DNA of 64,000 nucleotides, from the NCBI GenBank assembly GCA_022402445.1, contig JAKRSF010000008.1, positions 186,001 through 250,000 on the forward strand, read 5' to 3'. Origin of the DNA: Cyanobacteriota bacterium (GTDB lineage: Bacteria; Cyanobacteriota; Cyanobacteriia; CACIAM-69d). The translations under genes were made by a program, and so were the position numbers. Of this stretch, positions 8,417-22,499 are shown piece after piece. How positions within the stretch are numbered: position 1 is the stretch's first letter; each line of letters opens with the position of its first letter. The notes under the pieces were generated by a model. It was not told where the DNA came from. It ran no database searches and worked only from the letters and a program-made list of their open reading frames with translations.

Positions 8417-8968
8417 CTAGTCCACCCCTTGATAGAGATTTTCGAGGGGGAAAGTTAGATCAATGCTGTGGAGGGTGACGCGATCGCCCGCTCCATAAAC
8501 CACCGATGTCCAAGCACCATCGGGCTGACGGCGGCGACATTCCACCCAGAGCTGATCCTGATCGATGAGGACGTATTCCTCTAGGTCCGGGATCTGTTGA
8601 TAATCCTCAAATTTTTGCCCCAGATCAAACACCCGCGTACTTTTAGAAAGCACTTCAACGATTAGTTTGGGATAGCGTTTGACGAGGCGATCTTGCTTGT
8701 CGCGATCGTCGCAGGTCACGAAGGCATCAGGGTAATAGTAAAACTCGTCCTTGTAATTGACCTTGACATTGCCTGAGTGAAAGCGGCAACTCGTGTTACC
8801 AAGATGCAACTTCAGGTCAGTCAGTAGGTTGAGCGCAATTCGATCATGATTATCCGTACCGCCCGCCATGGCGTATACCAGGCCATAACGGTACTCGTGG
8901 CGGCGTTGACTGTCGCGCTCTAGCTCTAAATAGTCCGAAGGGCTGATGTAATGGGGAACGGCGATCAT
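8417..8968 (-). CDS. Uma2-family endonuclease-like protein, copy A
   Basis: A 183-residue Uma2 (DUF820) protein with the PD-(D/E)xK nuclease fold, very expanded in cyanobacteria. The visible core: YYYPDAFVTCDD (PD with aspartate at about residues 79-86), then KLIVEVLSKSTR (E-V-L version of ExK) and the DLGQKFEDYQQIPDLEEYVLID block. Cellular role unknown. It is nearly identical over most of its length to the gene at 21951-22499, and about 70 bases upstream of the start are also shared, so the two arose by a recent duplication that carried the promoter region. ATG at 8968. Confidence 0.92.
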   Translation of the reverse strand: MIAVPHYISPSDYLELERDSQRRHEYRYGLVYAMAGGTDNHDRIALNLLTDLKLHLGNTSCRFHSGNVKVNYKDEFYYYPDAFVTCDDRDKQDRLVKRYPKLIVEVLSKSTRVFDLGQKFEDYQQIPDLEEYVLIDQDQLWVECRRRQPDGAWTSVVYGAGDRVTLHSIDLTFPLENLYQGVD

Positions 8969-9050: not shown

Positions 9051-9209
9051 TCAATGGGTGGCTTGGCTCCGTCGTGATCGCACCAGTAGTCCCGCGATCG
9101 CGAGGCTAACCAACAACAGCGACGGCTCAGGCGTGGAAACGGGGCGATCGGGCGGTTGCGATCCTGATCGCGGATTGGACGCGGTTCCGCCAATGCCGCC
9201 GGGGATCAT
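9051..9209 (-). pseudogene. Orphan PEP-CTERM sorting tail (remnant 3' end of a secreted-protein gene)
   Basis: Read on the minus strand, this 52-codon frame ends VSTPEPSLLLVSLAIAGLLVRSRRSQATH. That is a textbook PEP-CTERM signal: Pro-Glu-Pro, a hydrophobic helix, then an Arg cluster at the C-terminus, recognised by exosortase. There is no signal peptide or passenger domain. Upstream the frame closes after about 15 more codons at a TAA inside the end of the neighbouring gene, in a different frame from it. The piece is GC-rich and carries HIP1 (9094-9101), unlike the AT-richer DNA directly upstream. It is best read as the surviving 3' end of a native gene; a real 52-residue protein is less likely. 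Confidence 0.6.
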
Positions 9210-9232
9210 GTCGCCACTCAGATAGCGAGACT

Positions 9233-10039
9233 TTACAAGGAGCGGAGTTTCTTAAAACTAAACAAGGACAAGCCCACCAAGCTCAGTCCAATCAGCGGCG
9301 ATGAGTCGGGGGTAGATCGAGTTGTATAATTTTGATTTTGGACAAGTGCATGAAACTCTTTTTTTGTGACTTCATCCAAGTCATCAGCCAGGAAAATTCC
9401 ATCCCAGTTTTCCTTAACTAGATCTTCATCCACAGGTGAACCAATTGCTCGATATCCATAGCCCACTCGCCCGAAGCCTGTTGGCCACATCCTCACGATT
9501 GGTGTGTAATTCATGAAGCAACCAACTCCCCGCCAACCTAAGCAAGCAGAAAAACTGCCTTGTGTCCAAAAAGTGTTGTTGCTTTTCCATTGACCGATAT
9601 GACCATTGAAGTTGACCAGTGGGTATGAATATATTTCAGCCCATCGGTTTACCAGTCTTGCAGATGTGACAGTGCCTCCGCGCCAGCAGTGAGAAATTTC
9701 CTGAAAGTACCCGAAAGCTCGAATTCCGAAAATATTCCTGTAGGTATTGCCAACTCGAGTATTGGCGCATCCAGACCAGTTTTTACTGGCAGCAAATTGG
9801 GCAAATAGGCTATCCTTATCCTCCACTGTTTCAATCGTTTCCTCAATGTCGAACAGCCCACCATCGTCTTCCTCCTCGTCCCCGAAATCGATATCGTCGG
9901 CGTACCCAATGCCATTTGCAGGATCCGCGTATGCAGGCAAGTGAGTGGCGAGTGAAATGATCGATCCAATCAGAATACTCGTAGCGAGAGCACCAAGCTT
10001 TGAAGAAAGGGAATTGGTTTCGGAGTGGGTAGAGGACAT
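9233..10039 (-). CDS. Secreted protein with acidic N-terminus and PEP-CTERM-like tail
   Basis: About 268 residues from the ATG at 10039 (MSSTHSETNS). A signal peptide (LGALATSILIGSIISLATHLPAYADP) precedes a strongly acidic patch (DDIDFGDEEEDDGGLFDIEETIE), then a Cys- and aromatic-rich domain (WSGCANTRVGN, SHCWRGG, SACLGWRGVGCFMNY) of no family I know. The end STPDSSPLIGLSLVGLSLFSFKKLRSL has PEP-CTERM layout (short Pro motif, hydrophobic helix, basic end) but PDSSP instead of PEP. This start is supported by a sigma-70-type promoter at 10068-10096, which would lie inside the gene if a start further upstream were used. AT-richer than the flanks, with no HIP1. Confidence 0.8.
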   Translation of the reverse strand: MSSTHSETNSLSSKLGALATSILIGSIISLATHLPAYADPANGIGYADDIDFGDEEEDDGGLFDIEETIETVEDKDSLFAQFAASKNWSGCANTRVGNTYRNIFGIRAFGYFQEISHCWRGGTVTSARLVNRWAEIYSYPLVNFNGHIGQWKSNNTFWTQGSFSACLGWRGVGCFMNYTPIVRMWPTGFGRVGYGYRAIGSPVDEDLVKENWDGIFLADDLDEVTKKEFHALVQNQNYTTRSTPDSSPLIGLSLVGLSLFSFKKLRSL

Positions 10040-10067
10040 GATGTAAAACCTTGCTGTATGTTCCAGC

Positions 10068-10096
10068 ATTCTAAGGTAAATAAACTTGTTAGTCAA
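10068..10096 (-). promoter_or_regulatory. Sigma-70-type promoter of the secreted-protein gene
   Basis: On the minus strand TTGACT, exactly 17 bases, then TAGAAT. Five of six bases match consensus in each box. It lies 29 bases before the ATG at 10039. Confidence 0.65.
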
Positions 10097-10273
10097 CGAA
10101 CCTGAGGATGGTGAATTCATTGAATTTATTAAGTTCGATGCTGACAGTCAAGCAGCAGTCTTCAGAACGGCAAGATGTATGAATCGTCACTCGCCTGCGT
10201 AAAGAGGCTGAGATCGACACTTTAACCACATTGCCTTTCAATACAATTAGGGAGTTGAGCAGGATTTAAATTG

Positions 10274-11555
10274 CTAAGCCATCCTAATTAACCAAGCATC
10301 ATCTCCTCCTTGATTCATTCCAGACAGACTACCAGAGGTGTGACCTGTAATGTAAAGACCGGTTCCGCTGACTACAATTCCATTTGCCAAATCATTGTTA
10401 GAGGTTCCAAGTTGCTGAACCCACTGTATGGCTCCATTGACATTGTACTTGGCAACCCAAACATCATCGCCCCCAGAACGGGACGCTCCTACCTTACCCT
10501 GCGTTTGACCGGTAATGTAAACGTTGCCAAACCTGTCAGATGCCACAGCAGATGCGGCGTCATACTGCGAAGTACCGATCTGTCGTTTCCACTTCAAGTT
10601 GCCATTACTGTCATATTGAGCAACCCAAGCATCTGCATTACCATGATATACACCGCCCAATTCAGATTGGTCCCTGTGAGCAGCAGCCCAACGGAGCCTG
10701 GAATCGCCCAACTCATGCGGATTGCCTATAAAGGGATCGCCTATTAGGCTACGGGTGTAGCCTGCGATATAAACATTGCCATTAACGTCAATGGAAATTC
10801 CATTGGAAACATCTTCAGCCTGGGTTCCCAACTGTCGCTTCCAGATCAGTAGACCCTGAGGATCATATTTGGCGATCCAAGCGTCTGAATCACCTTGGGA
10901 TAGCCCGTCAAGATTTCCTCGGGTATATCCAGTGATATAGACAAATCCGCTGGAGTCAACGGCGACACCCCTGGCCTCATCCCGTTGTGGTGTACCGATC
11001 TGGCGAACCCACTGTTGATTGCCATTGTCATCATATCTCGCAATCCAGGCGTCCCCGTCACCCTTATGGGTACTCTCCAGACTTCCGTGGGTGACTCCCG
11101 TCAGATAAAGACTGCCGTTGCTGTCAATAGCTAAAGAACCATTAGAGATGCCATAGTCTGACAAATTGCCTACAGTATCTGGGCGACCACGCACTGTCTT
11201 ATGCCAAATGAGAGCACCATCGCTGCCGTATTTGGCTAGCCAAGAAGAGCGAACCGCACCACCCCCGTCAATAGATCCATCAGTCCAACCAGCAACGTAA
11301 AGATTGCCGTCCTTATCAGTCACAACGCCGTTAGCAGCATCATATCCTGATGTCCCTAGCTGACGTCTCCAAAGCTCAGAACCACTAGAGTTATACTTCG
11401 CCACCCATGCGTCATAGGAACCCAGGTTAATTTCGGATAAGTTACCCGATGTACGACCGGCAATATAGATATTGCCAGAACTATCGAGTGTGACAGCCTC
11501 CGAATAATCGTAGCCCGATGTGCCCAACTGACGCTGCCAGTCAACCTTAGGTGTG
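10274..11555 (-). repeat. Seven protein-coding SBBP repeats (beta-propeller blades)
   Basis: Seven diverged in-frame repeats of roughly 50-70 codons, each built on a W-x-x-Q-x-G-T-x-x-x-D core (for example WQRQLGTSGYD, WRRQLGTSGYD, WVRQIGTPQRD, WKRQIGTSQYD, WVQQLGTSNND) followed by GNxYIxGxT. Seven copies fit a seven-bladed propeller. These are coding repeats, not a CRISPR or satellite. Confidence 0.8.
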
Positions 11556-14500
11556 TCGTTGTCGAGAATATTCATAATCCCCACACCGTCACCCACAATT
11601 GCATAGTCAGGGCTAGACCGAAGCAAGAGACGAACTAGCTCTGTGGGCTCTACCTCATTGTCATCAATCGGAATAATGTCAATGTCTACTGAGGAGTCAC
11701 CAGCAGGAATAACTACACTCCCATCGATATGGTTAGCCGTTCCTGTGGTGACCGTCCCCGGAATGTGTTCATAGTCTTTGCCAGGAATAGCCCGTAGCCA
11801 CCATTCCCGTTCCCAAAAATGAACGGTTAGGGGCTGGCTAGTATCGCCAGTGCGAGTGAACCTAAACTTACCAATTTCTCCATACTCAGAGATTGTGGGG
11901 GTGATTGCGGCAATGCTCACAGATGGTTTATCGTCATTATCCCAAATCACAGTTGGATGGCTACCCCAACCTGGCAAGACGTTATAAGTTAGGCTTGGAT
12001 CAATAGTTAAGATTGCTGTCTCTTCGCCTTCTATCTCGTCATCATCGATAGCCTTGATTATGATCGAACGATCAAAATCGCCAGCCCTAATTGTGATAGA
12101 TCCAGGCAGATATTCGTAGTCTACGCCGCTAGTTGCCGTACCACTCATTGTGTAGTTGACGACCATGTTGCTTCTTACATCTCCAAGACGCCGAAACATA
12201 TATCGTCCCGTATTACCTGCCTCAGAGATGTAGTTAGCTGTATGCCAGGGACGTTCAACTGTTGCAGGACCACCAGCCTCCCATTCTGTTAGTAGTTGGA
12301 TCCTAGGTAACTCATTATCAAAGATGCTGACTGTTGCCATACTGGCTGAGCCAACCTCATATCCATTGGCACTCGTCAATCTGAGGTTAACTGTCTCCGT
12401 CCACTCAGGCTCATCATCATCAATCGGAACGATAGGAACTTTAATCGATGAGCTTCCAGCAGGAATTGTGATCTGGCCAGGAAGACCCACAAAATCTTTG
12501 CCGCTGGTTGCCGCTGGTGCTGACCAGTGGATTCCATCGCGAAATTCATAGTTGATACTCAAGGGGTGGCTAGTGCTTCCAGTTCGGGTAACAGTAAATT
12601 CTCCATTACCCTCTCCTTCGGCAGTCTTTGGTATGGTTGCCGAAATATTGACCGTTGGCTTGCTTCCGTAGAGGTTAAGCTGCCAGGAATCCCAAAAGCC
12701 AACCTCTCCTGTTCTGCGATCAGTGACCTGCAGTCTCCATTGCCCTTTAGAAGACTCGCCCCAATGCCGAGTCGAACTAAATACCCAGTTGTCATAGTGG
12801 TCTCCCATGTCACCATGACGTTCTGCTAGGACTGATACCGTACCCTCAGGAGAAACTAATCGAATATCCAAATCTCCTCGGCGGAAATGTTGTATGTTCA
12901 CCACCACTTCAACAGTTTCAACCGTAATATCCTCCGTAAATCCTACAGATGAGAACCTATTTCTCCCATCGTTGTCAGGGATTTCTGCATTAATCGCAGT
13001 AAGGCCCGAGGTCAGAGCCACTTCAGTCCCAAGAGGTTGCCAGGACTTAGCCAGTGCAACGGCTGCACTAGCATCGACAGCTCCAAATCCATACTTATGA
13101 TTAACCCAGTAACCACCACCATTTAGCCTCCAACCACTGTCTTCTGGATCATTCTTTCTGGCAGTATCAATTAAAATTTTCTGAACATCACGCCAAGTCA
13201 GACTAGGGTTAGCTTCTAACATTAAGGCGATTATTCCAGAAACTAATGGTGCCGATGAAGAAGTACCACCGAAACTGTCTGTGTAATCGCTTCCGCTGTA
13301 ACCACTGCTTCCCAATATATCGGTTGTTAAGATCCCAGAATTGGATCCACTCGAATGTGCAGAAATCAGCAGGGCTGCACCGGGCTCGCTGTAGTGTGAC
13401 TGTTTCCCATTCTCATCAATAGCAGCAACAGCAATGGTATAACGCGAATTAGCGTAGCCATCATAGTTAACGTTATCGCCTGCCTCTTTACCGTTACCTC
13501 CTGCCCAAACGTAGATATTACCTAGTCCGTTTCGTCCTGTAGTTGCTCCAAGATGTAAGGCCATTGCTGTCAAAGGATTAGGGGCTTTCTTTGTTCTGCC
13601 GTCATCCAATGGCCCCCAGCTATTGTTATAGATATGGATGCTATTGTTCAGGTAGGAAAGCGCATCAGCTTCCATCATGTCTGTACTTGCACTTGCTGTT
13701 AGACGTAAGCCGGCTAGCTGAGCATTTGGTGCTGCACCAGTTCCACCGATATTATTGTTGCCTCTCGCAGCAGCTACCCCTGCCACGGCAGTACCGTGAC
13801 CATCCATCCCACTGTTTGGTTGTGGATCGTGGTCATAGGTTCCCCATCCCCCTGGCAATGCCTCATTAAAGTCACGGCTTAGGTCGGAGCGATAATTTTG
13901 TGCTAGATCGGGGTGAGTATGCTGTAGACCATCATCAACGATACCGATTACCACTCGTTGACCAGTCACACCTTGAGACCAAGCTCCAGTCAGGTTGCTA
14001 TCTTCTCCTATCCTTCCCCCGTTTTGCCCCTGATTCCTGAGGTGCCACTGCTGTAGGAAGAGGGGGTCGTTAGGAATGAATCGACTTTGTTGCTGTTGAG
14101 GAATGAGCGGGTAGACAAAGCCAAATTTTCCTGAAGCCTGCAGAGTCTCTTGCACTTCCTGAGGTGTTAGGCTATCGGGGAATTCAAAGACATAAGTTCC
14201 TTCAATATATCTTGTTCTCCCCATCAGTCTCGCATTGAATAGTCGGGCGATCTCTTCAGCTTTTTCACCTGTCTTGATATTGACGACCCACTGTCGGGCT
14301 GACGCAAGATCTACCGGGTCATAGAGATCGAGGTTTTCAGCGCGACGCAGGGAAATCTCAACGCTAGGGGGAAGCTTTAGTGGTCCCTGAATACCGTTAT
14401 ATGATTCTGAAGGTAAAGGTAACCCAGACTTAGGTTGAGTTGCCTTTGCAAGATTGACTGCCGCAACCAAGTTTACAAGCCCTGCCCCAGTCTGCAAGTC

Positions 14501-17017
14501 CCAGCCTGACGTACCTAGATCCGTTGCTGTTTCCTGGAGGATATCCATTACTTGGCGGTAGCTTAGCGCGGGATTTGCTGCCCAAATCTGAGATACGACT
14601 CCTGTTACACGGGCCGCAGCTACTGATGACCCTGACATCACACCTAAACCGTCACCCATAGTGGACAAAACTGGATTTTGAGATGTTCCACCACTGGCTA
14701 CAACCATTGGTCCATCACCGGGGTTGTTATATCCAGAAAGGAATGCGTCAAGATCAAAGGATACTGTTAGCCGATCAACACTTTCTAATGCGGCAACTGT
14801 TATGATGTTGTCGAACTCCTGTAGTGCCTGACCGAGCGCAGATGTGACAGCACCGTCGCTGCTGACTCCCGTCACCAAGATCACACCGTTCTCTTGGGCA
14901 TACCTGACGGATGCTCGCTCTCTGGTAGTCAATTCACGCCGAACTGTAGTCGTACCATCGGGATTTTCCTGGCTTAGGTCAAAGTTTAGACTAATAATCC
15001 CGTTAGTCTGACCCGAAACTTTAATGTGATCAACTGCATCAATTAACGCCTCTGTCCATGCTTCACTTCCCATTGCCCGTGTGACGTAAATTGGGGCAGC
15101 AGGATTAATTCCGTTGATACCAATTCCATTATCTGGCTGTGCTGCAATTATGCCCAGTGTATGAGTACCTTGCTGTCGGGTTTCTCCGAACATTGATGTT
15201 GGATCGGAATCATCATCAATATAGTCTTTACCCCAAATAATATTCTCAAAATTAATGTCAGGATTTTGACCTGAAAATCCCGTGCTGATAATCCCAATGA
15301 CGGGCTGACTTTCTGATGTAAACTCAAATTGAATTTCTGTGTAAGTTGGGATATGGTCAGGGAAACTCCATTCAGACTTAGGTGTAATCTCACCAACTAA
15401 ATCGGACAGTGACTCATCGTTAGAAGAAGTCTCAGGAATAGGAGGAATCAGGGACGCTTCAGGCTCAGGTAAAGAGACTGCATCAGACATATCTGGTTGA
15501 TGCTGCTCCCCAGGAGAAGGTGTTCCGGATGTAGGAGATTCTAGGGACTGCTGAGCATAGGACAGCAACAGTTGACCTGCCGCCGTGCCGCGCCAATCTT
15601 TCCCGCGTGCAATCACCTCATCCATCAGCACCGCTTCACCGGTTGCGCCGCGCACCTGGAAGATGAAGTCGTTGTAGTCGCGATCGCTCCCCCGGTCCAG
15701 CCGCTTATCTTCAAACGCAAAGACACTGCCATCACCGGTCACATCCGCGATTTGCCCCATCTGGAAGCTCTCGTTCGGATTCGCCGTCACCATCGAAAAC
15801 AGGGGACGCGCCGCACCCTCTGCCCCAGGATTGTCAAAGACATAGGCAAAGGTGGAATTCGGGATCATGACAACCCCAAACGTATCCCCCGCCTCCATTT
15901 CAAAGACTTTCAAGCCGCCATAAACGCCACCGTTATGGTCACGGCCACCGCCCATCACCCCGTCAAACCGCGCCGCCTCGGTGGTGTCATCCCAGAAGAT
16001 GTGTCCCAGGGCCGAATCACTCAGAACGCGCCGCACCGCCTCTTCAATGAATTCCGCTGAACCGGGCTCATAGACTTCCAGGTCGCGAAGGCTAAAGATG
16101 CCCGCTTCCCCCTCGTAGGCACCCCCATCCCAGAGCACGTCAAGGACCACTAGGCCGGACTCGCCCACCGTGAAGATCCCCGAACTGAACGGCGTTTCGG
16201 GGTCCAGCAAGTCGAGCGGCGGAATGATTGAATCCTCCTCTTCCCCGTCATCGGTTAGGGATTCATCGACCAAAGCCCCTTCCGTCTCCTCCGAATCCCC
16301 CTCACCCACGGGCGGTTCGTCGGTCAAATCCGTTGCGATCGCGTCCAGTTCATCAGCATCTGGGTCTGTGCCGTCGCCCTCCGCGTCAGTTTCGGGCACT
16401 GGGCCAGACTCCGTATCCAGGGATAGATCTTCCCCGTCTAGGCTGCTCCCGTCGGCCAAGTCAGTGGAGGTATCGGCGATCACATCAACCCCATCCGCAT
16501 CCGTCGCCCCATCCACGGGGGATTCCACCTCCGCCGTCTCATCCGCCGCATAAACGAACTCGATGACCTCGTCCTCCAAGTCGTCTTCGCCAAGGACAAG
16601 GGGTTCATCAAGGTCAGCGTCTAACTCAGCTTCCAGGTCCGTTGCCGGGGGCTCCCCTACGGGATCGGTCCCTTCCGTCGGGTCAACGCCATCCCCGCTT
16701 TCCAGGTCCGGCGGCGCGCCCTCCTCCAGCTCCGCCTCCGCCAAGTTAGGGGTATCTGCCCCATCCAAGCCATCGGGCTCCGCCTCAAACTCTGGCAGGA
16801 GAGGGCTTTCAGCCTCCAAGGGCAACTCCACCGGAGCCAAGGGCTCACCGGCCACATCCTCCAAATCATCCGCCAAGGGCAGGATCGGGCTTGGGGTATT
16901 GAGGCGCTCCAAGCGCTGCCAGTGCCAAGGGTTTTGATGTTTGCCAGACCGGGAGGTGGGTTGAGATGCCATGGCCCTGATGGGGGTAGAGGATGCGCCC
17001 GAATGCCTATAATGCAA
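10274..17017 (-). CDS. Giant chimeric protein: DUF4114, pseudo-subtilase, kexin-like protease, P-domain, Calx-beta x3, SBBP propeller
   Basis: 2,247 residues from the first ATG; a second ATG at 16972 (MASQPTSRSG) is equally likely. No Sec signal is seen. Approximate domains: 50-270 Asp/Glu-rich disordered region; 275-460 DUF4114 (ends DRDYNDFIFQVRG); 570-850 subtilase fold with lost catalysis (Asp motif reads IISTGFS, His motif QQGTHTLG, Ser motif GSSVAAA); 900-1000 a prodomain-like segment; 1020-1310 S8 kexin/furin-like protease with intact IVDDG, DGHGTAVAG and GTSSSAP; 1335-1450 proprotein-convertase P domain; 1456-1820 three Calx-beta domains; 1821-2247 seven SBBP-type repeats. Base composition shifts near 15,560: the N-terminal part is GC-rich with HIP1, the rest AT-richer without it. 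Probably a secreted or surface calcium-dependent protease; the divergent M50/HlyD genes are candidate export partners. Confidence 0.9.
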   Translation of the reverse strand: MHYRHSGASSTPIRAMASQPTSRSGKHQNPWHWQRLERLNTPSPILPLADDLEDVAGEPLAPVELPLEAESPLLPEFEAEPDGLDGADTPNLAEAELEEGAPPDLESGDGVDPTEGTDPVGEPPATDLEAELDADLDEPLVLGEDDLEDEVIEFVYAADETAEVESPVDGATDADGVDVIADTSTDLADGSSLDGEDLSLDTESGPVPETDAEGDGTDPDADELDAIATDLTDEPPVGEGDSEETEGALVDESLTDDGEEEDSIIPPLDLLDPETPFSSGIFTVGESGLVVLDVLWDGGAYEGEAGIFSLRDLEVYEPGSAEFIEEAVRRVLSDSALGHIFWDDTTEAARFDGVMGGGRDHNGGVYGGLKVFEMEAGDTFGVVMIPNSTFAYVFDNPGAEGAARPLFSMVTANPNESFQMGQIADVTGDGSVFAFEDKRLDRGSDRDYNDFIFQVRGATGEAVLMDEVIARGKDWRGTAAGQLLLSYAQQSLESPTSGTPSPGEQHQPDMSDAVSLPEPEASLIPPIPETSSNDESLSDLVGEITPKSEWSFPDHIPTYTEIQFEFTSESQPVIGIISTGFSGQNPDINFENIIWGKDYIDDDSDPTSMFGETRQQGTHTLGIIAAQPDNGIGINGINPAAPIYVTRAMGSEAWTEALIDAVDHIKVSGQTNGIISLNFDLSQENPDGTTTVRRELTTRERASVRYAQENGVILVTGVSSDGAVTSALGQALQEFDNIITVAALESVDRLTVSFDLDAFLSGYNNPGDGPMVVASGGTSQNPVLSTMGDGLGVMSGSSVAAARVTGVVSQIWAANPALSYRQVMDILQETATDLGTSGWDLQTGAGLVNLVAAVNLAKATQPKSGLPLPSESYNGIQGPLKLPPSVEISLRRAENLDLYDPVDLASARQWVVNIKTGEKAEEIARLFNARLMGRTRYIEGTYVFEFPDSLTPQEVQETLQASGKFGFVYPLIPQQQQSRFIPNDPLFLQQWHLRNQGQNGGRIGEDSNLTGAWSQGVTGQRVVIGIVDDGLQHTHPDLAQNYRSDLSRDFNEALPGGWGTYDHDPQPNSGMDGHGTAVAGVAAARGNNNIGGTGAAPNAQLAGLRLTASASTDMMEADALSYLNNSIHIYNNSWGPLDDGRTKKAPNPLTAMALHLGATTGRNGLGNIYVWAGGNGKEAGDNVNYDGYANSRYTIAVAAIDENGKQSHYSEPGAALLISAHSSGSNSGILTTDILGSSGYSGSDYTDSFGGTSSSAPLVSGIIALMLEANPSLTWRDVQKILIDTARKNDPEDSGWRLNGGGYWVNHKYGFGAVDASAAVALAKSWQPLGTEVALTSGLTAINAEIPDNDGRNRFSSVGFTEDITVETVEVVVNIQHFRRGDLDIRLVSPEGTVSVLAERHGDMGDHYDNWVFSSTRHWGESSKGQWRLQVTDRRTGEVGFWDSWQLNLYGSKPTVNISATIPKTAEGEGNGEFTVTRTGSTSHPLSINYEFRDGIHWSAPAATSGKDFVGLPGQITIPAGSSSIKVPIVPIDDDEPEWTETVNLRLTSANGYEVGSASMATVSIFDNELPRIQLLTEWEAGGPATVERPWHTANYISEAGNTGRYMFRRLGDVRSNMVVNYTMSGTATSGVDYEYLPGSITIRAGDFDRSIIIKAIDDDEIEGEETAILTIDPSLTYNVLPGWGSHPTVIWDNDDKPSVSIAAITPTISEYGEIGKFRFTRTGDTSQPLTVHFWEREWWLRAIPGKDYEHIPGTVTTGTANHIDGSVVIPAGDSSVDIDIIPIDDNEVEPTELVRLLLRSSPDYAIVGDGVGIMNILDNDTPKVDWQRQLGTSGYDYSEAVTLDSSGNIYIAGRTSGNLSEINLGSYDAWVAKYNSSGSELWRRQLGTSGYDAANGVVTDKDGNLYVAGWTDGSIDGGGAVRSSWLAKYGSDGALIWHKTVRGRPDTVGNLSDYGISNGSLAIDSNGSLYLTGVTHGSLESTHKGDGDAWIARYDDNGNQQWVRQIGTPQRDEARGVAVDSSGFVYITGYTRGNLDGLSQGDSDAWIAKYDPQGLLIWKRQLGTQAEDVSNGISIDVNGNVYIAGYTRSLIGDPFIGNPHELGDSRLRWAAAHRDQSELGGVYHGNADAWVAQYDSNGNLKWKRQIGTSQYDAASAVASDRFGNVYITGQTQGKVGASRSGGDDVWVAKYNVNGAIQWVQQLGTSNNDLANGIVVSGTGLYITGHTSGSLSGMNQGGDDAWLIRMA

Positions 17018-17382: not shown

Positions 17383-18912
17383 ATGCAACATCTACAACAT
17401 TCTCGATCACTAGAGACCCACACTGAATGTGTGAGCCTTAGGGGACCAGCTCCCAGTGCTGATTGGCTTTGTCCTGACCTTGGGGCCTATTGGAAGATCC
17501 GCCCGCGTCGTCAGCCTTGTCCATCGGGGAAAACCCATGTCCTGTGGGCGATCGCGGGTCCTCAGCAGTTTGTGCTGTTGTCCGCAAGGGAGGCCGAGAC
17601 CCTGAAACGTTTCTCGGGGACCTTCACCCTGGGGCAGATCCAGCGCCACTGTGAACGAACACTTGGGGATGTGCCGAAGGATTGGGTGCTGCGGCTGGTG
17701 GAGCGGCTGATTCAGGAGGGGGTACTGCAAATGGATGATGATGGGACTGGCGATGGGTCGCCCCCTGAGGAATTGCAGGGACGTTCACCCCAAGGGGAGA
17801 GGCCCCCTGGAGCCCTCAAGCCCTCCTTGCTGTGGACGCCTGATCCCGATTGCGATGAGAAGTGGCTGCTCACAAATCCTGAAAATCAGGAGTGGCTAGA
17901 AATTGCCAAGATTTGGCGGCAGCCCCTTGAGCGGGTGGGCTATCGATCACCAGCGGATTTGGCGGCGGCATATGGGTTTGATTTGCGGGATTTTCAAGAT
18001 CTCTATGCCAACCTTGCGGATGCAGAAATGTTGGTGGATGTGGCTCGGCCCCAGCGGACTCGGGGCAAATGGACGCCGATGCGTTTGATGTCCTTTCGCC
18101 GACCGCTATTTAATCCGGATCCGCTGCTGAATCGCTACTGCCGCTGGTTTTTGTGGATGCGATCGCCCTGGTTTGGCCCGACCTTGACCGCTGCCCTGGT
18201 GGGGTCGTTAGTGGTGATGTTGGATCAGTCCCCCGTGATTTTTAATGAAGTGCAAGTTTTGTGGCAGGTGTGGGGCGGTTCCCTCCTGTTACCCTTTGCG
18301 TTGCTGGTGGCTTTGGTGGTCAGTGTCCACGAGTTTGGCCATGCCCTAGCCCTCAAAACCTACGGGGGCACGGTGCCAACAATTGGGCTGCTGTTCATGC
18401 TGCTGATCCCGATCGCCTACACGGATGTGAGCGATGCGAACCCCTTGCCTCGCCATCAAAGGGCCGTAGTGTTTGGGGCGGGTATTGTGGTGCAGGCTGC
18501 GATCGCGGTTTTGGCCTTTTGGCTATGGTGCGGAACAGCGGGGGGGAGTTGGCTCCATGTGACGAGTTGTCTATTGATGGGGGCGGCCACCTTCACCCTT
18601 TTGATTAACTTTAATCCCCTGATGAGTTATGACGGCTACTACCTTCTGAGCGCCCTAACGGGCATTAGAAATTTACGCGCCCAATCTTTCAAACTCTATG
18701 GGGCTTGGTTGACCGGTAAGCCTGAGCCCTGTCTGCCCAACCAGCGCCTCACCCTAGCGGTCTATGCCCCGTTTTCCTTGGCCTATTCCCTGCTTGTTAT
18801 GGGCACCATTGCGTTACTAATTCTCCACTGGAGTTTGGCCCATATTCCAGTGGTTTTTGCAATGGCGCTACTGGTATGGCTCATTTACTATCTCTACCCC
18901 GATTCCCAATAG
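17383..18912 (+). CDS. PqqD-like/M50 membrane zinc protease (YydH-type), export-associated
   Basis: 509 residues. Residues 30-120 form a PqqD-like winged-helix region (HVLWAIAGPQQFVLLSAREAETLKRFSG ... VPKDWVLRLVERLIQEGVLQ), the type of domain that binds peptide substrates. A linker follows, then an M50 site-2-protease core with six or more membrane segments. The zinc motif is VHEFGHALALK at about residue 315 and the third ligand lies in NFNPLMSYDGYYLLS at about residue 410. All metal ligands are present. Proteins of this build occur in peptide-export clusters, where they act with an HlyD-type adaptor; here an HlyD-family gene follows 104 bases downstream on the same strand. ATG at 17383 is preceded by CAGGGTGATGG. 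Substrate unknown; the divergent giant protein or the small upstream peptide are candidates. Confidence 0.88.
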   Translation: MQHLQHSRSLETHTECVSLRGPAPSADWLCPDLGAYWKIRPRRQPCPSGKTHVLWAIAGPQQFVLLSAREAETLKRFSGTFTLGQIQRHCERTLGDVPKDWVLRLVERLIQEGVLQMDDDGTGDGSPPEELQGRSPQGERPPGALKPSLLWTPDPDCDEKWLLTNPENQEWLEIAKIWRQPLERVGYRSPADLAAAYGFDLRDFQDLYANLADAEMLVDVARPQRTRGKWTPMRLMSFRRPLFNPDPLLNRYCRWFLWMRSPWFGPTLTAALVGSLVVMLDQSPVIFNEVQVLWQVWGGSLLLPFALLVALVVSVHEFGHALALKTYGGTVPTIGLLFMLLIPIAYTDVSDANPLPRHQRAVVFGAGIVVQAAIAVLAFWLWCGTAGGSWLHVTSCLLMGAATFTLLINFNPLMSYDGYYLLSALTGIRNLRAQSFKLYGAWLTGKPEPCLPNQRLTLAVYAPFSLAYSLLVMGTIALLILHWSLAHIPVVFAMALLVWLIYYLYPDSQ

Positions 18913-19016: not shown

Positions 19017-20579
19017 ATGACCATGACTGCTCCCCAATCTCACCCCCCAGAGCGCCCTGCAACGGGTTCTGCATCTCCCCTGAAGGCTGTTCCTCCGAGC
19101 CAGAGGGCTGCCCTGCGGCAGGGGCCAGCCCTGCGCAAAAATGCGACCGCCCCTGCCGATAGTTCTCCTCCGCAGACGGGGGCTCCCTTGGCTCCACCGG
19201 CTCCGGCGGCGGATGATGGTGGTACTCCGGCGACTGCGGCTCCGGTGGTAAAACCACCGAAGGGGGGGGCGATCGCGGGGCAAAGCCATTGGCGACGGTG
19301 GGGTGTAGGGGTGTTTGCGGTGTGTGGAGTCGTGGCGATCGCCCATATCCCGGTATCACCTCCCGTGAATCCTCCTGGCGAACTCCGATTGCCCGAAACG
19401 CAGACATCCCGTGAGTCGATCTATGCGCCGGAGGTGGGCATTATTAAAGAAATTGTCTCCTCGAATAAGAGGGTTGAGATGGGTGATCGCTTGGTTGAAT
19501 TTAAGTTCCCGGAATTAGAGAAGGAGGCGAACAACCTTGCCCTAGAAATCGAAAGGCAGAAAGTGGCGCTTCAGGAGGCGCGATCGCGGTCCCAAGCAAT
19601 CCAAGGGCGGGTGAGCGAACTCCAGGCGCAGTTGCTGTTGGTGGGGCAACAGGCCATGCGATCGCAGGACCGGGCCAACCGTAACCAATCCCCAGACATG
19701 GCGGTCTATGAAGCAGAACGCCAGGAATTACGAGCGAAGCAGGCTACTTTCCAGGGGCAAGCACAAGCTACCCAGAAAATGGCAACAGATATACGCTCAG
19801 AAATCGAGGACTATAAACCTCTTGCAGAAGAAGGGGGAATTTCTAACCACTTTTTGAATGCTAAAAATGCAGAGCTTGCACGCCACGAGCGAGACTTAGA
19901 GCTCTATCAAAATCAGATTAAAGAGTTGGAAAGCAGGATTGCTGGAGTTAGGGCAAAGGAAGATCTCGCACGTCGATCTCTGGGGGATCAAAGCGTGGAT
20001 CGAAAGGGGGAATTTCAACAGGTGCGGGCAGCCCTAGACGCCGCGATCGTGGAGAAGTCCGCCAGCGAAGAATCGGTTGCCCTTGCCCAGTCATTAATTG
20101 GTCGCTATCGCCAGGAGATGAACCAAGTACTCCAGAAAATTGAAGACAACCGCGTGATCTATGCAAAAATCGCTGGGCGGGTACATTCATCTACCGATTT
20201 AGTCACCAAGCTAAATGCCAAGGTTGATCCGAAGGATTTATTATTTGAAATCATCGACGGCGGACAGTTGAAGGTACTCATCAGAATCGATCAAGCGGAT
20301 CGGGACGTGGTGAGAAAAGGCATGGCGGCACAGATTAGACCTGTCCAGTCCGATCAACTCAAGCAAACTGTTATTCTCCAGGAAGATGCGTCGGTCATGC
20401 AGCAGGATGAAACCCAGCAAAAAAGCCAGCTCCTGTATTTCGCAACGATTGATAATCCCGATAACAGCTTACGGCCCGGTGAACAGGTCTATGTGACCAT
20501 CCTGACGGAACCCATGCCGCTCTACCGCGTAGTGGGCCGTGAATTAAGTTATCTCTTCAAGATCAATGCATTTTTTTAA
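19017..20579 (+). CDS. HlyD-family membrane-fusion (periplasmic adaptor) protein
   Basis: 520 residues. A Pro/Ala-rich cytoplasmic N-terminus of about 95 residues is followed by one membrane anchor (WGVGVFAVCGVVAIAHIPV). Next come a lipoyl half-motif (IYAPEVGIIKEIVSSNKRVEMGDRLVEF), a long coiled-coil hairpin rich in Glu/Gln/Arg (about residues 165-375), the second lipoyl half (VIYAKIAGRVHSSTDLVTKLNAKVDPKDLLFEI) and a beta-barrel (LKVLIRIDQADRDVVRKGMAAQI ... LRPGEQVYVTIL). Such adaptors link an inner-membrane exporter to an outer-membrane channel. No ABC transporter or TolC gene is adjacent; the M50 protein is the only inner-membrane partner visible here. Followed by a hairpin terminator. Confidence 0.92.
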   Translation: MTMTAPQSHPPERPATGSASPLKAVPPSQRAALRQGPALRKNATAPADSSPPQTGAPLAPPAPAADDGGTPATAAPVVKPPKGGAIAGQSHWRRWGVGVFAVCGVVAIAHIPVSPPVNPPGELRLPETQTSRESIYAPEVGIIKEIVSSNKRVEMGDRLVEFKFPELEKEANNLALEIERQKVALQEARSRSQAIQGRVSELQAQLLLVGQQAMRSQDRANRNQSPDMAVYEAERQELRAKQATFQGQAQATQKMATDIRSEIEDYKPLAEEGGISNHFLNAKNAELARHERDLELYQNQIKELESRIAGVRAKEDLARRSLGDQSVDRKGEFQQVRAALDAAIVEKSASEESVALAQSLIGRYRQEMNQVLQKIEDNRVIYAKIAGRVHSSTDLVTKLNAKVDPKDLLFEIIDGGQLKVLIRIDQADRDVVRKGMAAQIRPVQSDQLKQTVILQEDASVMQQDETQQKSQLLYFATIDNPDNSLRPGEQVYVTILTEPMPLYRVVGRELSYLFKINAFF

Positions 20580-20703
20580 GGACTGATAAGAATGAGAATC
20601 AAGACGTTCACCTCTGACGTTTAGAAAGGTTATTGAGGCCCCCTTCACACCATTCTATGTCGGCCATAGATTTAAAGACCCAATGTAAAGGGGATCACTA
20701 ACT

Positions 20704-20724
20704 CCTCTGTCCCTAGGACAGAGG
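20704..20724. terminator. Hairpin between convergent genes
   Basis: CCTCTGTCC, loop CTA, GGACAGAGG: a perfect 9-base stem with a 3-base loop in the gap between the HlyD gene and the convergent glycosyltransferase remnant. There is no long T run on the plus strand, so efficiency is uncertain. Confidence 0.6.
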
Positions 20725-20746
20725 GCATGATGACATAAAATAACCT

Positions 20747-21786
20747 TTATCTTTTCTGCAGTCTTTTGGGAAAAGTAGGCACGGATTCAATCAGGGCGAA
20801 TGGAATAAGACACAGAGGCCAGAGAAAATATTGTAAGAAAAGCACTGAATTAAAATATAAAAATATCATCATCGTCATTGCAGAAGCCGTAAATATTTTG
20901 GTTTCTTCTTTCATGAAACTCAGATAGGTCATTGTCATGAGAAGTACCATGGGCAACTTTGCTATTACACCTGTTAACCAAGTCAGTCTTGTCGAAAGAA
21001 TCATGTCAATGGAGGGTGCGCCCTGTATATGCAAGCTCGGCAGCCGCGTCGCCGAAAATACAATGGACTTAAAAAAGCCTTCAGCATTCCAAATTAAAAA
21101 TGGCAACGATGTCAGCATGGGAATGCTAAAAATAATTAGAAATCCCCAAAGCGCGCTTTTTGCTTGCTTCGTTTTTTCTGCATTCTTCCAAAGATCTATG
21201 AGATAAATTGGCAACAAAAAATTGCAATATGCTTAATTCCCAAGGAGAAGCTAAACATCAGCAAAGAAGTTATTCTTTTCTCTCGCCAAGAAATTAGAGA
21301 TAATAACAAGAAAAATATTGCCGCAAATTCCAGATGATGAACGCGTATTACATAGATGCTCCATCGACTCAATAAAACGATCATGGAACATACAAATCCA
21401 AGTATCCATAGTTTTCGCTTGCTAAAATATCTCAAAATCAGGGAAATTATTCCGACATGGAAAACAAAGGATGTGGGTCTCCATATATTTAGCCAAGTGT
21501 TAAAGTCTGAAAACCCAAGTATTTGAACAAATGAAGACAAAAGATATGACAAGGGAAAATAAGTTGCATATTTATCATTGATTCTCATGTCACCTGCCAG
21601 AATTCTGGCATAGGGATTTTCTCCAGTGATAATTCTTCTTCCTTCAACCCAAACATAGTAGATGTCCTGTCCTCTCAATGAATCAGAAGAGTTCATCCAG
21701 AATCCAACATGGATCAATAACCCGACTAAAGTTATGGGCAACAGCAGCATCAAGTATTTTTTGTTTGATTGACGTGAAGCGCGCAT
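20747..21786 (-). pseudogene. Multi-span membrane glycosyltransferase (GT87/GT39-like), frameshifted
   Basis: Two overlapping minus-strand frames together read as one polytopic protein of about 350 residues. The first (start 21786) has an N-terminal membrane segment, then DIYYVWVEGRRIITGENPYARILAG, the loop typical of DUF2029/GT87 lipid-linked sugar transferases, and many membrane spans up to SLGIKHIAI. It then runs into a premature stop at 21196-21198. The second frame continues FLLPIYLIDLWKN to the end at 20747. The break is at a run of six T (minus strand, near 21217-21222); a seventh T would fuse the frames. The gene is AT-rich and lacks HIP1, unlike its surroundings, which suggests acquisition. 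Assembly error or transcriptional slippage could also explain the break. Confidence 0.7.
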
Positions 21787-21950
21787 GAAAAATGATAATG
21801 ATTGAGAAATTAAGCTTATTTATTAACTGTATACTCAATCGGCCAGGATAGTAAAAAATTGAAAAAATCTTGTGAGAATTAAGAAGTGTAAATTTATGGA
21901 CCTGTGCCTAGAGGGTATGGTGTGTGGCGATCGCGCCTGAATCTAATCGC

Positions 21951-22499
21951 CTAATCCACCCCTTGATAGAGATTTTCGAGGGGGAAGGTTAGATCAAGGC
22001 TTTGGAGGGTGACGCGATCGCCCGCTCCATAGACCACCGATGTCCAAGTGCCATCGGGTTGGCGGCGGCGACATTCCACCCAGAGCTGATCCTGATCGAT
22101 GAGGACGTATTCCTCTAGGTCCGGGATCTGCTGATAATCCTCGAACTTTTGGCCCAGATCAAAGGCCCGCGCGCTTTGGGATAAGACTTCGGCGATTAAT
22201 TTTGGGTGGCGTTTGATGTAGCGATCGGCGCGATCGCGATCGTCGCAGGTCACGAAGGCGTCAGGATAGTAGTAAAACTCATGTTTGTAGTTAACCTTGA
22301 CTTCGTTATAAACACGGCACGGCGTATTTTCTAAATGACGATCAATCAGGCCCAGTAGCTTGATTGCAATCTGTGAGTGGGCATCGCTGCCGCCTGCCAT
22401 CGCGTAGACGAGGCCGCGACGGTACTCGTGGCGGGTGGGGCTATCGCGCTCAATGATCAGGTATTCGTCAGGATTGATGTAGTTTGGAATGGCGATCAT
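21951..22499 (-). CDS. Uma2-family endonuclease-like protein, copy B
   Basis: 182 residues, paralogue of the gene at 8417-8968. The Uma2 PD-(D/E)xK core is present (YYYPDAFVTCDDRD, KLIAEVLSQSAR, FEDYQQIPDLEEYVLID). The C-terminal 90 residues are almost identical to copy A; differences cluster near residues 40-70. The sequence before the start, through an ACAATTATGGTCGCGGCAAA stretch and on to the next HIP1 site, is also shared. It sits just beyond an AT-rich island. ATG at 22499. Confidence 0.92.
   Translation of the reverse strand: MIAIPNYINPDEYLIIERDSPTRHEYRRGLVYAMAGGSDAHSQIAIKLLGLIDRHLENTPCRVYNEVKVNYKHEFYYYPDAFVTCDDRDRADRYIKRHPKLIAEVLSQSARAFDLGQKFEDYQQIPDLEEYVLIDQDQLWVECRRRQPDGTWTSVVYGAGDRVTLQSLDLTFPLENLYQGVD

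Follow-up and report, generated by a model that had tools for sequence, protein, structure and literature searches.

Why does the gene for a large, probably secreted cyanobacterial protein pass abruptly from GC-rich into AT-richer DNA, with the end of a surface protein lying stranded beyond it? The gene lies on contig JAKRSF010000008.1 of a Cyanobacteriota bacterium (assembly GCA_022402445.1, positions 186,001 to 250,000; this stretch of 64,000 nucleotides is the window, and all coordinates refer to it), where an open reading frame (ORF) at 10,274-17,017 (-) encodes a DUF4114 domain followed by S8 proteases. The first-pass annotation of this DNA proposed that foreign DNA had entered a DUF4114-PEP-CTERM gene, fusing its front to a protease and stranding its tail at 9,051-9,209. 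Comparison with relatives points to a different history. Judged by its sequence, the gene belongs to a family that swaps its tips and is an unusual member of it, partly decayed and tipped with a protease; a block reaching across two genes would have been replaced here. We put the probability of this explanation as a whole at about three in four.

A composition step coincides with the ends of homology

The GC fraction at third codon positions (GC3) is ~0.68 up to codon 491 of the gene and ~0.41 beyond. Sixty-codon bins stay at 0.65-0.72 to codon 480, and every later bin lies at 0.28-0.52. The maximum-likelihood GC3 step falls at 15,544 (interval 15,535-15,622) with a gain of 57.8 log units over a model with no step, the largest gain in 500 permutations being 10.2. 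GC3 remains low and similar throughout the linker, the first S8 domain (S8a), the C-terminal tip and an orphan gene past the stop codon. HIP1 has 191 copies in the window where 2.8 are expected, and is absent from 9,094-15,680, a 6.6-kb stretch that reaches to the remnant tail and forms the longest gap in the window (P ~3e-9 at an even rate). These profiles, recommended by the first-pass annotation, bear out the sharp-edged break that it suspected.

Our syntenic reference is Limnothrix sp. CACIAM 69d, which belongs to the same family as the window genome and shares with it the gene order Uma2, PEP-CTERM gene, DUF4114 gene, M50, HlyD. DNA homology to this genome ends at 15,534, defining a left breakpoint at 15,534-15,622, and restarts at 9,220, defining a right breakpoint at 9,220-9,232. 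The homology breakpoints and the composition edges coincide, and together they uphold the earlier suggestion that the AT-richer block differs in origin from its flanks.

Two sources for the block were rejected. No gene identified from 9.2 to 15.6 kb encodes an integrase or transposase, and the edges share only an 8-bp match at chance level, in keeping with the first-pass annotation, which saw no target duplication; a mobile element was discarded on these grounds. A plasmid origin was discarded because megablast gave no match.

Similar composition patterns occur elsewhere. A second AT-rich stretch (37-40% GC) at 20,500-21,900 overlaps the HIP1 gap that ranks second in length (19,658-21,927). 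Strain ESFC-1 carries a gene with a similar step (L155, 9,689-15,937), in which GC3 is 0.64 in DUF4114, 0.30 in S8 and 0.36 in the tip.

The stranded tail comes from a separate gene

The sequence at 9,051-9,219 (-) is homologous to the 3' end of the Limnothrix PEP-CTERM gene. Its ORF (9,051-9,209) matches the PEP-CTERM model below threshold (18.4 bits versus a cut-off of 20.7) and is 79% identical to the last 58 residues of the Limnothrix protein. There, the PEP-CTERM end sits on a separate, propeller-like protein of 271 aa that carries a signal peptide of its own and is weakly similar to DUF4394, tachylectin and ScyD/ScyE. The rest of the gene, about three quarters of it, was not found in the window's own genome. 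Because the gene is separate in Limnothrix and its remainder is missing from the window genome, there is no sign that the tail was ever part of the DUF4114 gene. The tail is a stranded PEP-CTERM remnant, as first proposed, and it is not the tail of the DUF4114 gene, whose product ends in SBBP repeats and has no PEP-CTERM signal there.

The Limnothrix propeller protein adjoins the first of two DUF4114-S8 genes in that genome. The tip of the second (L048, 6,608-7,324; G004:C41:20607-21323) contains a domain 36% similar to the propeller protein.

The first S8 domain: orthologous but decayed

In Limnothrix, the DUF4114 gene runs from DUF4114 into S8 and then into amidase, B-lectin, LGFP and CHAP modules. 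A DUF4114-S8 trunk is found in dozens of cyanobacteria, and on this sampling DUF4114 followed by S8 is the normal architecture of the family. The DUF4114 region of the window gene (15,584-16,210 (-); Pfam core 15,647-15,898, PF13448 E 7e-22; GC3 0.70) is 70% identical to that of Limnothrix. Window and Limnothrix are sisters in both domain trees, with support of 100/96 for DUF4114 and 100/94 for S8. Their DUF4114 branches are alike in length (0.27 and 0.21), and their S8 branches measure 0.84 in the window versus 0.14 in Limnothrix.

By these trees, the window S8a (14,420-15,340 (-)) is orthologous to the intact Limnothrix S8. Import of S8a from a distant lineage is ruled out by its position as sister to Limnothrix. 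The domain has lost three of its four catalytic residues, reading S/Q/S/S instead of D/H/N/S: the Asp is replaced by Ser, the His by Gln and the oxyanion Asn by Ser, and the catalytic Ser is kept. Catalytic residues of the trunk S8 are intact in 47 of 61 S8 rows, a majority to which the window S8a does not belong.

These comparisons bear directly on the insertion of foreign DNA into one DUF4114-PEP-CTERM gene. The sharp composition edges, the correct order and strand of the two ends and the stranding of the tail all fit such an event. However, the search for an uninterrupted gene in relatives leads, in the syntenic Limnothrix, to two separate genes; S8 follows DUF4114 natively; and the S8a domain right after the break is orthologous to that of Limnothrix. 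We consider insertion very improbable. Since homology is interrupted from 15,534 to 9,220, and the tail represents a separate gene, the data instead favor replacement across two genes.

A protease-tipped architecture shared with Spirulina

Translation from the first ATG of the window gene (16,972) yields 2,232 aa, in which Pfam identifies DUF4114, two S8 stretches, a P-domain, Calx-beta and SBBP. The protease/Calx-beta/propeller chain of the first-pass annotation is confirmed; that there are two S8 domains, the first without an active site, had gone unnoticed. The N-terminus bears a leader-like motif (16,847-16,936 (-); RLERLNTPSP.., E 4.7e-12 against the motif profile), which reads WQRLERLNTPSPILPLADDLED in the window gene and is a variant of the family motif FILEPILTPSGLID. 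It lies within an acidic, probably disordered segment (16,208-16,969 (-); GC3 0.67), and NCBIfam matched nothing in the N-terminal segments. Following S8a, a spacer or prodomain-like segment (13,994-14,419 (-)) is conserved at 31-35% in relatives with the same second protease, and its homologs show a weak Fervidolysin_NPro-like match. The second S8 domain (S8b; 12,983-13,993 (-); PF00082 E 9e-71) is kexin-like with intact Asp/His/Asn/Ser motifs, and is succeeded by a proprotein convertase P-domain (12,671-12,922 (-); PF01483 E 1.7e-24), Calx-beta domains (11,573-12,640 (-); PF03160 E 4e-21) and, at the C-terminus, SBBP beta-propeller repeats (10,277-11,572 (-); PF06739 E 4e-50). This arrangement suggests a calcium-dependent secreted protease in which S8b would stand in for the dead S8a.

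A co-linear homolog occurs in Spirulina sp. CS-785/01 (L198; G314:C60; the same gene as L149). This protein of 2,405 aa is encoded in one frame and consists of DUF4114, a fully degenerate S8, a second DUF4114, a prodomain-like spacer, S8b, P-domain, Calx-beta and SBBP. It ends at the same place as the window protein, with 48% identity over 353 aa of the Calx-beta region and 43% over 449 aa of the SBBP region. Its GC3 is 0.41-0.51 in all segments but the short spacer (0.64). A second Spirulina protein (L193; 3,216 aa) has the same order, and its first S8 is degenerate as well. The window gene thus has an architecture already established elsewhere, and the existence of a contiguous DUF4114-S8-P-Calx-SBBP protein further contradicts an insertion. 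Both outcomes that the first-pass annotation had named as refuting its model were observed.

The same proteins bear on the possibility that the gene changed stepwise in place, the S8b tip being added behind the native S8, S8a decaying and drifting toward AT, and the orphan gene arriving separately. The occurrence of a degenerate S8a in S8b-bearing Spirulina proteins fits this course, as does S8a being sister to an intact Limnothrix S8 and the sole long branch. Against it, GC3 drops a single time, at the linker ahead of S8a, and then stays at a similar level in S8a, the tip and the orphan gene. Relaxed protein constraint is not expected to shift third positions through half a gene, which is why we favor en-bloc replacement and think stepwise change unlikely.

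Relatives exchange their C-terminal tips

The window gene combines a leader-like motif, DUF4114 and S8 in one frame, which is how the family is defined here. At the N-terminus of the family, the leader motif FILEPILTPSGLID is followed by acidic sequence; in 10 genomes, every motif match below 1e-8 falls in a frame that proved, in the cases examined, to be a member of the DUF4114-S8 family. We compared tips among 37 DUF4114-S8 genes. Among pairs whose S8 domains are at least 75% identical, 49 of 64 have less than 25% of their tips in common, and in 24 the tips have nothing in common. Over the 213 pairs at >=70% S8 identity, tip sharing is uncorrelated with S8 identity (Spearman 0.04).

The clearest exchange is seen in two syntenic Oscillatoria loci (L154 and L179), whose trunk DNA is 92.7% identical until 82 nt past S8. 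Their tips (400 and 672 aa) have no similarity, and homology returns at 96.8% DNA identity ~145-160 bp past the stop codons. Tandem genes in one Spirulina locus (L125) likewise have trunks 90% identical at the DNA level and exchanged tips. In the pairs examined, DNA homology breaks mostly between -11 and +82 nt around the S8 end, in the vicinity of a conserved hinge or border motif, TWSGEGKVTPTERAA, which follows S8 in most rows and is absent from the window gene. Local protein alignment places the border with a broad spread (median offset 95 aa), probably because the alignments extend into chance matches, and the DNA-level breaks are more reliable.

Peptidoglycan hydrolases (M23, Amidase_3, CHAP, GH25 or Hydrolase_2) were found, by our count, in 21 of 30 scanned tips, commonly with LysM, SH3_3, LGFP or lectin modules. 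GC3 is lower in the tip than in the trunk in 30 of the 37 genes (Wilcoxon p 9e-7, uncorrected for relatedness). One clear case of a trunkless, tip-like ORF near a family gene was seen (L127, 6,670-8,763): it encodes 697 aa with LGFP and C39 modules, begins 90 bp downstream of a DUF4114-S8 gene and may be a displaced tip. In another genome (G014), a DUF4114-S8 gene appears broken (L053, 1,363-3,870 (-)), with an M23/SH3 tip in a separate frame past the trunk stop. No tip-linked immunity gene was present in L154/L179, the only pair tested closely.

Across the genes compared, a trunk of leader-like motif, acidic stretch, DUF4114 and S8 is conserved and the C-terminal tips are exchanged. This pattern could also represent ordinary module shuffling among exoproteins, without a dedicated exchange system or any role in conflict, and with AT-rich tips reflecting a general gradient along long genes. 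Cyanobacterial exoproteins are generally modular, the GC3 test takes no account of phylogeny or of gradients that unrelated genes may show, and the syntenic pair has no linked immunity gene. On the other hand, tip similarity is independent of trunk similarity, the swap in L154/L179 lies cleanly between 93% and 97% identical DNA, and the motif ahead of the tip recurs. We regard ordinary shuffling as a serious contender that falls short of even odds.

A probable block replacement across two genes

Under the explanation that we favor, everything from just after DUF4114 (~15,540) to 9,220 would have been replaced en bloc by AT-richer DNA. The incoming block would have carried the degenerate trunk S8, the tip of kexin-like S8, P-domain, Calx-beta and SBBP, and the orphan secreted protein, and its arrival would have cost the next gene about three quarters of its length, so that the PEP-CTERM end was left behind. 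Recombination with the allele of the same gene from an AT-richer relative may have been the route. Direct support comes, at the sequence level, from synteny, the homology breakpoints, the composition step, the orthology and decay of S8a, the co-linear homolog and tip exchange in relatives.

Several points weigh against this history. No donor was found for the AT-richer block. S8a is closest to Limnothrix, so either the donor was close kin or the composition of S8a changed in place. The event was also not a typical exchange, because the S8a-S8b junction lacks the TWSGEGKVTPTERAA hinge and the breakpoint lies upstream of S8. Finally, the comparison rests on one genome of the window's genus.

Neighboring genes

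The AT-richer orphan gene next to the remnant (9,233-10,039 (-); ORF 9,233-10,120, likely start 10,039; GC3 0.46) encodes a product with a predicted Sec signal and a PEP-CTERM-like end, both judged by eye. It has no homologs in 390 genomes of the class, in plasmids or in Pfam, and a single-sequence AlphaFold model was uninformative (pLDDT 32).

On one flank, the Uma2 gene (8,417-8,968 (-)) is 73% identical to the one at the matching Limnothrix place. Another Uma2 gene at 21,951-22,499 (-) is 78% identical to this copy, and the genome contains 14 Uma2 matches. On the other flank lie an M50 peptidase gene, identified by domain match (17,383-18,912 (+)), and a gene for a HlyD-like adaptor (19,017-20,579 (+)), which has an M50 gene beside it in Limnothrix and elsewhere too. 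At 12 of 51 family loci, by raw count, the flanks retrieved include an M50 relative, usually with HlyD. M50 and HlyD are possible helpers in the export or processing of the DUF4114-S8 protein.

Relation to known systems and significance

The tips of Rhs proteins are AT-richer. Polymorphic toxin systems (Rhs, CDI; Zhang et al. 2012, PMC3482391) resemble the family in their conserved N-terminal trunk, exchangeable C-terminal tip and border motif; the AT-richer tips here add to the likeness, and the one trunkless, cassette-like downstream ORF (L127) may do so too. They differ in that tips in the DUF4114-S8 family are mostly multi-module peptidoglycan hydrolases, the window tip being a protease with a propeller, and in that the syntenic pair tested has no cassette-linked immunity gene. 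The papers searched gave no example of the DUF4114-S8 trunk.

The nearest relatives of the window S8b and P-domain are stand-alone, kexin/furin-like cyanobacterial S8-P proteins (51-57% identity), whereas the window S8b sits behind DUF4114 and a degenerate S8 and is followed by Calx-beta and SBBP. The remnant at 9,051-9,219 is the end of a PEP-CTERM/exosortase surface protein, unlike the DUF4114-S8 gene, which has no PEP-CTERM end in the window or in Limnothrix. DUF4114 is also the N-terminal domain of Myxococcus PilY1.1, where it is proposed to bind calcium and sugar (PMC9109919); PilY1.1 is a different protein with the same Pfam domain, and the window DUF4114 precedes a subtilase. A DUF4114-calpain protein reported from Oscillatoria acuminata (PMC4631099) similarly joins a cyanobacterial DUF4114 to another peptidase, but no S8 trunk was reported for it. 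No description of the DUF4114-S8 family was found in the literature searched, which covered few subscription journals.

A tentative and, in our view, doubtful extension is that DUF4114-S8 proteins are undescribed cyanobacterial weapons. They would combine a dedicated N-terminal leader and an M50/HlyD-type exporter, a protease trunk and interchangeable wall-cutting tips recombined at a fixed post-S8 border and diversified by conflict with other microbes, the window form being one variant, and would thereby play a role in competition.

The window gene documents the loss of an active site in one domain of a protein equipped with a second protease. The interesting part of the finding is the pattern at the level of the family, through which a puzzling composition break becomes an instance of something wider. 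The function of DUF4114, the core of the trunk, is poorly known, and the border motif, the leader motif and the neighboring genes offer testable handles. Should experiments bear the pattern out, filamentous cyanobacteria would own exported cell-wall hydrolases with toxin-like, swapped C-terminal ends.

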